Assembly (NCBI GenBank): GCA_029261855.1
Contig: JAJDAN010000003.1
Span: forward strand, 1 to 64,000
Length of the DNA stretch: 64,000 nt
Direction: 5' to 3'
Origin: Deltaproteobacteria bacterium
Lineage (GTDB): Bacteria > Myxococcota_A > UBA9160 > UBA4427
Numbering within the stretch: position 1 is the stretch's first letter; each line of letters opens with the position of its first letter. The translations under genes were made by a program, and so were the position numbers. The notes beneath the pieces are model-generated. The model had not been told where the DNA came from and made no database searches. It was given only the letters and a program-made list of their open reading frames with translations. This document shows, one piece after another, positions 21,123 through 35,441 of this stretch.

Positions 21123-21136
21123 TAGAACGTGTTCTA
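21123..21136. promoter_or_regulatory. KstR-like operator upstream of DUF35/thiolase operon
   Basis: TAGAACGTGTTCTA fits TnnAACnnGTTnnA exactly and is a perfect inverted repeat (extendable by G/C on each side). It lies 86 bases before the first DUF35 gene. The same pattern occurs at 30191, 35406 and 35428, always before acyl-CoA or TetR genes. The consensus is that described for mycobacterial KstR; use by the local TetR protein is inference. Confidence 0.7.
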
Positions 21137-21222
21137 CGTTCGGGCGCCCGTGACACACGCCCGTCGGCTCGATGCGAATGCGCCGGATGGATCGTGGGTC
21201 GCTTGTTGGAGGCCCGCACGTC

Positions 21223-21672
21223 ATGGCAGATGAGCTGCTCTCTGCACCGCATGTTCTCGAGTACGACTACCGCCGGTCCCTCGGCGAGGTCCTGAGCCGT
21301 TTCTTCACCGGTCTGCGCGACCGCAAGATCCTCGGCGTCAAGACGAACGCCGGACGCGTGCTCGTGCCGCCGTCGGAATACGACCCCGAAAGTGGCGATG
21401 CCACTTCGGACGACTGGGTCGAGGTCGGCCCGGGTGGCGTGGTGAAGAGCTGGGCTTGGGTCAACGAGCCCCTCGGTCGGCACTTGCTCGATCACCCGTT
21501 CGCGTTCGCGCTGATCCAGCTCGACGGTGCGGACACGGCGCTGACCCACGCGGTCGACGCCGGTAGCGAGGCGAGCATGCGGACGGGGATGCGCGTCACC
21601 GCCCGCTTCGCGGACGACACCATCGGCGCCATCGGAGACATCGTTGCGTTCGTCCCCGAGGAGGGATCATGA
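21223..21672 (+). CDS. DUF35 OB-fold protein lacking zinc cysteines
   Basis: Protein of 149 residues related to DUF35/OB-fold partners of thiolase-like enzymes. The N-terminal helix (YDYRRSLGEVLSRFFTGLRD) and the OB strands (VVKSWAWVNEPL, PFAFALIQLDGADTAL, TGMRVTARFAD) are typical. The zinc-ribbon segment has no cysteine at all (GVKTNAGRVLVPPSEYDP), whereas the next gene keeps all four. ATG 21223 has GGAGG upstream; an ATG further upstream would add a basic leader across that Shine-Dalgarno. It overlaps the second DUF35 gene by four bases. These two plus two thiolase-like genes form one operon, so a hetero-complex with one thiolase-like partner is likely. Confidence 0.78.
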   Translation: MADELLSAPHVLEYDYRRSLGEVLSRFFTGLRDRKILGVKTNAGRVLVPPSEYDPESGDATSDDWVEVGPGGVVKSWAWVNEPLGRHLLDHPFAFALIQLDGADTALTHAVDAGSEASMRTGMRVTARFADDTIGAIGDIVAFVPEEGS

Positions 21673-22163
21673 GCGACAAGGAACCGGTCAAGAGCATCAT
21701 CACGCCCACGCGCACGGAGTACACGTACACGCCGGGGCCGTCCGCCCAGCGATCGCTGCGCGCCCTGGCCCGGGGAAAGCTCGTCGGCGAGATCTGCCCG
21801 AGCTGCAACCAGGTCTACTACCCCCCCAGCGGCGCCTGCGCGCGTTGTGGTGTCGCGACCCGCGACGAAGTCGAGGTTGCCGACAAGGGCACTGTCACCA
21901 CGTACGCGATCGTGCGAGTGCCGTCCGAGAACATCGACCTCGAGCTTCCCTACTGCACCGCGCACATCCTGCTCGACGGCGCAGACATCCCCTTCTTCGG
22001 TCTCATCCAGGAATGCGAATGGGACGCGGTCCGGATCGGGATGCGGGTCGAGGCCGTCTGGAAGCCCGAGTCCGAATGGGGCCTGAACGCCGAGAACATC
22101 CGCTACTTCCGTCCGACCGGCGAGCCTGACGTCCCGTTCGAGCAATTCAAGGAGCATCTGTGA
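21669..22163 (+). CDS. DUF35 zinc-ribbon/OB-fold protein
   Basis: Protein of 164 residues with an N-terminal helix, a rubredoxin-like zinc ribbon (CPSCNQVYYPPSGACARCG, near residues 43-61) and a C-terminal OB fold (TVTTYAIVRVP, PYCTAHILLDGADIPFFGL). DUF35 proteins bind SCP-x/thiolase-like enzymes, and in steroid side-chain degradation a DUF35 domain is essential for the Ltp2 retro-aldolase. It overlaps the preceding gene by four bases (ATGA) and the following thiolase-like gene by one (TGATG). That tight coupling suggests fixed stoichiometry within a complex. Confidence 0.85.
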   Translation: MSDKEPVKSIITPTRTEYTYTPGPSAQRSLRALARGKLVGEICPSCNQVYYPPSGACARCGVATRDEVEVADKGTVTTYAIVRVPSENIDLELPYCTAHILLDGADIPFFGLIQECEWDAVRIGMRVEAVWKPESEWGLNAENIRYFRPTGEPDVPFEQFKEHL

Positions 22164-23218
22164 TGCGTGATGTCGCCATCGCGTCCTTCGCCCAGACGAA
22201 GTACGTGCGCAACCAGGTCGAGCTGACCGAAGTCGACATGATCATCCCGGTGATCGGCGACGCGATCTCGCGATCGGGGATCCCGAAGTCGGAGATCGGC
22301 TTCTACTGCCACGGCAGCTCGGACTACATGGCCGGGCAATCCTTCGCGTTCGTCGGCGCCGTCGACGCGCTTGGCGCCTTCCCCCCCATCGCCGAGAGCC
22401 ACGTGGAGATGGACGGGGCCTGGGCGCTCTACGAGGCGTGGGTGAAGATCCAGTGCGGCGAGGTGGATTCCGCGCTGGTGTTCGGCTTCGGGCGAGCATC
22501 CATGGGGAAGCTGCGCGAGACGATGAATCTCCAGCTCGACCCCTACACGCTCGGTCCCCTGGGCATCGACTCCATCAGCCTCGCCGCCCTGCAGGCGCGG
22601 GCCCTGATCGATGCCGGCAAGACCAGCGAACGGCAGATGGCGGAGATCGCCATCCGCAACCGTCGCGTTGCCAAGGACAATCCCAACGCGCAGGTCACGG
22701 GAGACTTCGAGGTCGAGAAGCTGCTGGCCGAGCCGACGATCGTGTCTCCCCTGCGCAAGCACGACTGCCCCCCGATCTCCGACGGCATCAGCGCGGTGGT
22801 GCTGGCTGCGGGCAACCACATCGGTCGGGGCGAGAGCAAGCCGGTCTTCATCCGCGGCATCGACCACCGACTCGACTCGCACCAGCTCGGCGGCCGCGAC
22901 CTGACGCGCTCACCCTCGACGAAGCTGGCCGGCGAGCGGGCGGGAGTTCACGACGGACCGGTTGAATTCGCCGAGCTGCACGCTCCCTTCAGCCACCAGG
23001 AAGTGATCCTGCGCGAGGCACTGGGCCTGGGGGACGAAGTGGTGATCAACCCGTCGGGCGGCGCCCTCGCCGCCAATCCAATGATGACCGCGGGCTTGAC
23101 CCGGATTGGCGAGGCCGCCACACACATTGCGGCAGGCAAGGCCGGACGGGGCGTCGCGCACGCGACTTCCGGCCCGTGCCTGCAGCAGAACCTGATCTGC
23201 GTCCTGGAGGGTGAGTGA
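22163..23218 (+). CDS. SCP-x thiolase-like protein without nucleophilic Cys (1)
   Basis: Thiolase-fold protein of 351 residues, starting at ATG 22163 (a GTG three bases earlier is possible). The fold is evident from the N-terminus (VAIASFAQTKY) to the C-terminal VVINPSGGALAANPMMTAGL and HATSGPCLQQN. Where thiolases carry the nucleophilic Cys it reads ESHVEMDGAWALYEA, so normal thiolysis is unlikely. This matches retro-aldolases of the Ltp2 kind or other non-thiolytic family members. The gene is the third in a four-gene operon with two DUF35 proteins and a second Cys-less thiolase-like protein. The substrate may be a beta-hydroxyacyl-CoA with a tertiary carbon, which is inference. Confidence 0.82.
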   Translation: MRDVAIASFAQTKYVRNQVELTEVDMIIPVIGDAISRSGIPKSEIGFYCHGSSDYMAGQSFAFVGAVDALGAFPPIAESHVEMDGAWALYEAWVKIQCGEVDSALVFGFGRASMGKLRETMNLQLDPYTLGPLGIDSISLAALQARALIDAGKTSERQMAEIAIRNRRVAKDNPNAQVTGDFEVEKLLAEPTIVSPLRKHDCPPISDGISAVVLAAGNHIGRGESKPVFIRGIDHRLDSHQLGGRDLTRSPSTKLAGERAGVHDGPVEFAELHAPFSHQEVILREALGLGDEVVINPSGGALAANPMMTAGLTRIGEAATHIAAGKAGRGVAHATSGPCLQQNLICVLEGE

Positions 23219-34728: not shown

Positions 34729-34753
34729 CTGGCTCTCCGTTTCATGGGCTCGC

Positions 34754-35350
34754 TCACGCAGTGGCGAGTCGTTGCTTCTGTTCCGCGCCGAGCACCATCA
34801 GCTCGACGCAGTCACTCATCTCGTCGATCACGGTCGCCTGGCCGTGCAGACCACCGGCCCAACCGAGCAGCAGTGCGAACCACACCCGGGTGAGCGCGTG
34901 GGTGAGCAGTCGCTCGGACTCGTTGGGCGGGGGAGCCGCTTCCGCGGCGCGACCCCGCAGCGCGGCCACCACGAGATCATGGAGTCGAGCGTTGAAGGCG
35001 GCGGTGCGTTTGGCCAGCTGGGGATCCCCTGCGGCATGCGCCTTGAGGAGTGCGCGCGCCAGATTGGGCCGCCGGAGCAGGCCGCGCGTCGCCATCGCGA
35101 AGAACGCGGACACACGCTCGCTGGCGGTGTCCCCCCGCGGCGGACGCTGGGCCACCCGGCGCTCGAGATCGAAGGTCTCCAGCTCGAACGCCGCGATCAG
35201 CAGGTCTTCCTTGCTGCTGAATCGGCGGTACAAGGTGCCGAGCGCAACGCCCGCATGGGACGCCACGTCTCGCAGGCGGACGGCCTCGAAGCCTCCCTGC
35301 TCCGCCAGCTCGACGGCAGTCTCCACGATGCGTCTCGCGCGTTCTTCCAT
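34754..35350 (-). CDS. TetR family repressor, probable KstR-like regulator
   Basis: Regulator of 198 residues from ATG 35350. The HTH is [19 protein letters not shown], then [20 protein letters not shown] with [13 protein letters not shown]. The C-terminal ligand domain is all helical. An upstream GTG at 35413 would add 21 residues encoded inside the operator and is unlikely. Two copies of the TnnAACnnGTTnnA motif lie at 35406 and 35428 upstream, indicating autoregulation, and the same motif precedes two other operons. By analogy with KstR and FadR-type TetR proteins, the inducer should be an acyl-CoA. It heads an operon with a thiolase and an SDR. Confidence 0.85.
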
Positions 35351-35405
35351 GGGTTCTGGGGATTCCGGGGCCGGGTCCGGAGACCCGAAGTTTCGGGCCC
35401 GGTAT

Positions 35406-35441
35406 TGAAACACGTTTCACTTCGGAATGAAACACGTTCCA
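35406..35441. promoter_or_regulatory. Two KstR-like operators upstream of the TetR operon
   Basis: TGAAACACGTTTCA (35406-35419, perfect inverted repeat) and TGAAACACGTTCCA (35428-35441) both fit TnnAACnnGTTnnA. Their centres are 22 bp apart, about two helical turns, so two dimers could bind on one face. They lie 56-91 bases upstream of the TetR start codon and just past the MarR stop. Confidence 0.8.

Follow-up and report, generated by a model that had tools for sequence, protein, structure and literature searches.

The window analysed here, a 64,000-nucleotide stretch at positions 1 to 64,000 of contig JAJDAN010000003.1 from a Deltaproteobacteria bacterium classified in the Myxococcota (assembly GCA_029261855.1), very probably carries a KstR-type, autoregulated repressor circuit for the catabolism of sterol or steroid side chains. 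This circuit would consist of a TetR-family repressor encoded at 34754-35350, four palindromic operators, and the operons that these operators precede. The KstR motif itself was defined in mycobacteria, and in M. tuberculosis it is found at kstR, at Rv3545c/Rv3546 (fadA5), at Rv3503c/Rv3504 (fadE26) and at Rv3520c/Rv3521 (Kendall 2007, PMC1995591). A preliminary description of the window had proposed four KstR-like sites and a candidate steroid or bulky acyl-CoA regulon. In following it up, the positions of the sites, the identities of the target genes, the kinship of the regulator, the conservation of the operators and the co-occurrence of regulator and operator were computed.

Operator sites in the window and in the genome

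The motif was employed in a loose form, TNNAACNNGTTNNA, and in a tight form, TRRAACRYGTTYYA. By scanning the window with the loose form, the four 14-mers that the preliminary description had listed at 21123, 30191, 35406 and 35428 were recovered and no others, while 100 dinucleotide shuffles gave a mean of 0.10 matches and never more than 1. The earlier estimates of about 68% GC and about 0.1 expected sites were equally sound, with a GC content of 67.9% and 0.13 sites expected by base-frequency arithmetic.

All four sites fit the motif exactly. The first, TAGAACGTGTTCTA (21123-21136), lies upstream of a DUF35/Ltp-like operon and is the same as the 14-bp palindrome of the M. tuberculosis kstR operator (Kendall 2007, PMC1995591). 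The second, TAGAACACGTTTCA (30191-30204), stands 30 bp ahead of a pair of acyl-CoA dehydrogenase genes. The remaining two, TGAAACACGTTTCA (35406-35419, operator 1) and TGAAACACGTTCCA (35428-35441, operator 2), belong to the promoter of an operon comprising kstR, fadA5 and a short-chain dehydrogenase/reductase (SDR) gene, and they fall in the interval from the TetR start codon (35350) to the stop codon of the MarR gene upstream (35458). There they are arranged in tandem, 22 bp from centre to centre, or about two helical turns, a spacing that could permit cooperative binding.

In the 6.96-Mb genome the loose motif has 21 matches, compared with 14 for a reversed-pattern control, and alone it is not specific genome-wide; nearly all of the loose or one-mismatch matches examined outside the window are located within called open reading frames (ORFs). 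Because the loose motif shows little excess by itself, the tight form was used, which has five exact matches in the whole genome and none in the control. These are the four window sites and one at C24:53270, about 50 bp ahead of another two acyl-CoA dehydrogenase genes, a second pair whose structural relatives are those of the first (4x28, Tcur3483/3481). Each of the five tight sites is in an intergenic region, immediately ahead of an operon of kstR-fadA5, of ltp-like or of acyl-CoA dehydrogenase genes, in agreement with the earlier placement of the window sites before the DUF35/thiolase-like operon, the acyl-CoA dehydrogenase pair and the TetR-thiolase-SDR operon. One-mismatch sites were considered as additional operators and none was added, as they are mostly in ORFs and roughly level with the control; a further candidate at C54:105039 (TAGAACGCGTTCGA) was rejected for lying within an ORF.

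The regulator and its kinship

The gene at 34754-35350 (minus strand) encodes a TetR protein of 198 amino acids, counted from the ATG at 35350, which resembles KstR in sequence, profile and fold. In a sequence search of the Protein Data Bank (PDB), KstR was the best match at 2.6e-19, with the first unrelated TetR family at 2e-9. Among the NCBIfam models the highest score was that of the KstR model NF033703, with 109.7 bits, the next model reaching 37. A structural model of the protein (pLDDT 91.9) was submitted to Foldseek, and the top 17 matches were all KstR, with TM-scores of 0.77-0.84, followed by a Rhodococcus TetR and then a clear gap. When the genome was scanned with the KstR model, the same protein came first among 50 TetR matches with 109.6 bits, ahead of the next at 50 bits. 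In the region of the recognition helix, its VALGTLYRR resembles the VAVGTLYRY of M. tuberculosis KstR.

Phylogenetic analysis points in the same direction. A branch supported at 98/100 sets the Myxococcota and actinobacterial KstRs apart from 16 further TetRs encoded in the genome. The second TetR in the window (24372-25034) is outside the KstR group and is not KstR-like. Within the KstR group the order is weakly supported (80/76 and 92/82), and the Myxococcota KstR-like proteins and the actinobacterial KstRs each form their own group with moderate support. One row of the tree, L062, was wrongly extracted and has a long branch, which leaves the branch parting KstR-like proteins from other TetRs unaffected. 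By wide margins in sequence, profile and fold, the regulator is identified as a remote KstR, which supports the assignment of this TetR as the natural binder of the sites. Its lineage is apparently an old one, sister to the KstR of Actinobacteria; a recent import from an actinobacterial source is disfavoured because the Myxococcota sequences form a group of their own.

Starting from the window TetR, KstR homologues of actinobacteria were also retrieved: TAGAACATGTTCTA adjoins that of Nocardia farcinica (L179, 3799), and a FadA5-like gene is found near that of Nonomuraea (L177).

The predicted target genes

The gene at 33553-34728 (minus strand) is predicted to encode a FadA5-like steroid 3-ketoacyl-CoA thiolase. 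It matches FadA5 in the PDB at 1.8e-146, with the next thiolase at 5e-68, it passes the NCBIfam model NF005889 for steroid 3-ketoacyl-CoA thiolase (606.8 bits, above the cut-off of 515), and it keeps the Cys/His/Cys thiolase motifs. The third gene of this operon (32589-33503, minus strand; Pfam adh_short) encodes an SDR of the (3R)-hydroxyacyl-CoA/17beta-HSD4 type, for which the best PDB match is the (3R)-hydroxyacyl-CoA dehydrogenase 2et6, and 17beta-HSD4 was matched as well.

Downstream of the site at 30191, on the plus strand, a FadE26 (ChsE4)-like acyl-CoA dehydrogenase (30235-31413) matches 4x28_A at 4.7e-144, and the only PDB matches reaching 1e-40 are 4x28 and Tcur3483. It is followed by a FadE27 (ChsE5)-like partner (31418-32560), with matches to Tcur3481 at 1.1e-80 and 4x28_D at 3.3e-63, the next being 1.6e-33. 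Across the same operator lies a divergent gene, absent from the preliminary description, for a single-cluster ferredoxin of 62 amino acids (29833-30021, minus strand; Fer4_15). Homologues of this ferredoxin, 70-77% identical, are found beside FadE26-like genes in five relatives (L027, L028, L030, L032 and L034), and in four of these the operator is again located between the two genes. In M. tuberculosis, Rv3503c is presumably a ferredoxin gene. The KstR site at Rv3503c/Rv3504 is comparable to the arrangement found here (PMC1995591).

The operon behind the site at 21123, also on the plus strand, begins with a DUF35/ChsH2 C-terminal OB-fold protein (21172-21672; PF01796), for which an ATG near 21223 could plausibly serve as the start instead, and continues with a ChsH2-type zinc-ribbon/OB-fold protein (21669-22163; PF01796 and PF12172). 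A lipid-transfer/thiolase-like protein (22160-23218) follows, which passes NF005924 with 519.5 bits (cut-off 419), and then a thiolase-like protein (23215-24375), which passes NF006180 with 681 bits (cut-off 514); we take these two models to be those of Ltp4 and Ltp3, respectively.

These assignments support the view that the genes under putative control belong to enzyme types of the steroid side chain and not to lipid metabolism in general. The paired dehydrogenases and the steroid thiolase have ChsE4-ChsE5 (FadE26-FadE27, 4x28) and FadA5 (4ubv) of M. tuberculosis as by far their best structure matches, although the gene order differs. It is very improbable that the regulator is instead a generic TetR fatty-acid regulator like FadR or PsrA, whose AACnnGTT palindrome would have arisen by convergence before ordinary beta-oxidation genes. 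AAAC..GTTT arms also occur in the palindromes bound by PsrA-type TetRs and the targets are enzymes of the beta-oxidation type, yet they are steroid subtypes and not the general FadE and FadA, FadR structures match the regulator less well than KstR (TM about 0.59-0.68 versus 0.77-0.84), and the FadR profile reaches 36 bits compared with 110 for KstR.

Conservation of regulator and operator across the class

Within the class, 30 loci were compared, and an operator was found 16-84 bp upstream of the TetR start in 27 of them. Tight sites, of which essentially none would be expected, are present at all 13 loci from named metagenome-assembled genomes that were found via the TetR; these are labelled Myxococcota, Deltaproteobacteria, Proteobacteria or unclassified, and several of the 30 class loci are the same contigs as among these 13. 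Three further genomes (L049/L026, L052 and L071) also have the tandem pair with its 22-bp spacing, and when 12 operators are aligned, the columns without variation are exactly T..AAC..GTT..A.

The KstR-like TetR is encoded in 67 of the 91 class genomes, with 264 tight sites and 14 control sites between them; the 24 genomes devoid of the regulator have 14 and 17, respectively. At least two tight sites occur in 62 of the 67 genomes with the TetR and in 4 of the 24 without it (Fisher 6.5e-12, kinship among the genomes not being removed from this value), and the association runs in the same direction in all seven families that hold both kinds of genome. The retention of an operator at the regulator's own promoter in relatives, and the way in which it tracks the presence of the TetR across the class, are consistent with the autoregulation that had been suggested from the window. 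In a sample of the phylum, the TetR was detected in 109 of 379 genomes, 43 of which are outside the class.

These counts also bear on the reading of the sites as chance palindromes, or as operators of the TetR at 24372-25034 or of the MarR protein at 35458-35919, which is scarcely credible. The slight genome-wide excess of the loose pattern (21 matches versus 14 in the control) and the MarR gene directly upstream of the tandem sites would suit such a reading; set against this are the tight pattern, with its 5 versus 0 matches here and its excess in the genomes that carry the KstR-like TetR and background level in those that do not, and the position of the other TetR outside the KstR group.

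The genes that follow the sites in relatives are of the same kind. Of 43 distinct sites, 31 are just upstream of a homologue from the steroid gene set, versus 1 of 20 background sites in the window genome (p 3.6e-7), a comparison in which CYP125, enoyl-CoA hydratase and the nitronate-monooxygenase-like protein had been picked as lying under relatives' sites, such that matches at the source loci are not independent. The targets include FadE26-like genes, preceded by sites equivalent to that at 30191, as well as DUF35 genes, kstR, and the divergently arranged genes for CYP125 and an enoyl-CoA hydratase. The highest number of tight sites seen in the class, 14, was found in genome G053 (L141-L149), where they precede genes for CYP125, nitronate-monooxygenase-like, CoA-transferase III and luciferase-like proteins, among others. 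Comparison with solved structures identifies the P450 under the operator in G053 as CYP125, with PDB matches of 5e-152 to a reconstructed CYP125 and 2e-102 to that of M. tuberculosis.

Side-chain genes and ring degradation

Several observations weigh against a KstR circuit for steroid side chains. The regulator is about 27% identical to KstR over the fold, and its 109.7 bits are below the curated NF033703 cut-off of 280, which sets it apart from the KstR (Rv3574) of M. tuberculosis and M. smegmatis. No operator was found at the TetR in three of the class loci (L074, L075 and L077), and of 20 loci tested outside the class about half carry an operator at the gene and about half do not. The CYP125-like P450s of the window genome (C90:7123, C32:7703 and C89:153554), about 50% identical to that of G053, have no tight operator. 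In addition, all five tight sites precede genes other than those of ring A/B degradation (kshA, kstD, hsa) or mce4, the last of which was not itself searched for. In this genome, which is 98.6% complete, no match to the KstD model was found at 1e-100, the FAD_binding_2 candidates scanned scoring 147-152 bits against a cut-off of 788, and for HsaC the best TIGR03213 match has 67 bits and is closer to HpaD/catechol models, in a search whose control genomes contained no HsaC positive control. Complete steroid catabolism in this organism is therefore not supported by its predicted proteins, since no ring gene is under the motif and neither KstD nor HsaC was found.

Candidates for KshA are limited to two Rieske proteins of the KshA_C family, the better of which matches KshA structures weakly (5.9e-33). 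KstD-like proteins were detected in 41 of the 91 class genomes, none above the curated cut-off, and within the loci examined the KstD-like genes of relatives have no operator. A possible ring-degradation cluster at C89:424-464 kb, with a weak extradiol match and an FAD protein, was discarded for matching neither HsaC nor KstD. With KstD and HsaC not found and the KshA candidates weak, the circuit here covers side-chain genes, and any ring degradation in the organism, if it exists at all, would be of another kind or lie beyond the motif.

That the canonical ring genes KstD and HsaC were not found in this genome would also suit a KstR-descended repressor that senses another bulky or branched isoprenoid acyl-CoA, such as one derived from a hopanoid or terpenoid side chain, and controls its degradation; enzymes of these types might accept several bulky acyl-CoAs. 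This is nevertheless unlikely in view of the thiolase, which passes a curated steroid model and separates FadA5 from the next thiolase by 1.8e-146 versus 5e-68, of the similarly specific FadE26/FadE27 matches, and of CYP125, a steroid C26-monooxygenase family, being under the operator in relatives. Of the two substrates offered by the preliminary description, the bulky acyl-CoA is less likely than the steroid for the window genome, and a steroid nature of both inducer and substrate is likely.

Proposed mechanism and comparison with known systems

The mechanism that these results suggest, from DNA binding and repression to the effector, the substrate and growth on sterols, is inferred and can be put as follows. 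The TetR, as a dimer, would occupy TRRAACRYGTTYYA operators: in the promoter of its own gene, where the two tandem copies would provide autoregulation, upstream of the DUF35-DUF35-Ltp4-like-Ltp3-like operon, upstream of the FadE26/FadE27-like pair, and at the second acyl-CoA dehydrogenase pair (C24:53270). The divergent ferredoxin gene would probably also be under the operator at 30191. Once an acyl-CoA intermediate of side-chain breakdown (a steroid-CoA is the likeliest) accumulates, it would fill the ligand pocket and the repressor would leave the DNA, so that beta-oxidation of the side chain and its aldol cleavage can begin.

Such a circuit shares with the KstR regulon of M. tuberculosis and M. 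smegmatis the TetR repressor fold, the operator core TnnAACnnGTTnnA and a site at the regulator's own promoter, and with M. tuberculosis the same four target types preceded by operators (kstR, fadA5, fadE26 and Rv3521-type). However, the predicted regulon is small, with five tight sites compared with 16 motif instances in M. tuberculosis and 31 in M. smegmatis; kstR is in an operon with fadA5 and the SDR gene and not, as in the mycobacterial system, divergent from fadE34; no ring-degradation genes are seen under the motif; and the phylum is Myxococcota. EdcR, a TetR repressor of a proteobacterial steroid pathway, is likewise a repressor of steroid genes with a palindromic operator, yet its operator is different (TnnCnnTACnAnTnGTAnnGnnA) (PMC8700777).

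In a 2021 review, KstR homologues are described as absent from bile-acid-degrading Proteobacteria (PMC8399759), and in a metagenome survey no phylum beyond Actinobacteria and Proteobacteria was assigned all ten of the pathway genes (PMC5790920). Searches of the open-licence literature on KstR or steroid degradation in Myxococcota or Deltaproteobacteria brought up no earlier account of the present circuit, which is not proof of absence. The preliminary description had considered that a KstR-like circuit in a non-actinobacterial genome would be noteworthy, and the predicted combination of regulator, operators and steroid-type targets in Myxococcota favours its existence.

Neighbouring features

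Between two of the KstR-type operons lies a divergent TetR/HlyD-RND efflux set (24372-29664), which has no tight operator and whose TetR is unrelated to KstR. On the other side of the tandem operators, genes for the MarR protein, a methyltransferase, a DUF455 protein and an unassigned protein (35458-38942) are found again as neighbours of the KstR-like gene in several relatives. A tRNA-Sec gene (anticodon tca) was identified by ARAGORN at 13323-13421 (plus strand), and selenoproteins are likely in this genome.

Significance

KstR has been described as an actinobacterial regulator of cholesterol metabolism and studied mainly in the context of tuberculosis, and the operator, lineage and core targets reported here would indicate that the circuit crosses phyla. 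They also point to a conserved core formed by kstR, fadA5, fadE26/27 and DUF35-ltp, with CYP125 and enoyl-CoA hydratase in relatives. A tentative and rather doubtful extension is that a KstR-controlled module trims sterol side chains without ring degradation, perhaps on the organisms' own or scavenged sterols, and goes back in Myxococcota to about the time at which the actinobacterial lineage of KstR branched off; on that view, an older side-chain circuit was enlarged to give the cholesterol regulon of Actinobacteria. For a phylum to which the literature searched assigns no full steroid pathway, the circuit predicts sterol side-chain metabolism across a class of uncultured Myxococcota, and its motif may be used as a tool for finding sterol genes in environmental genomes.

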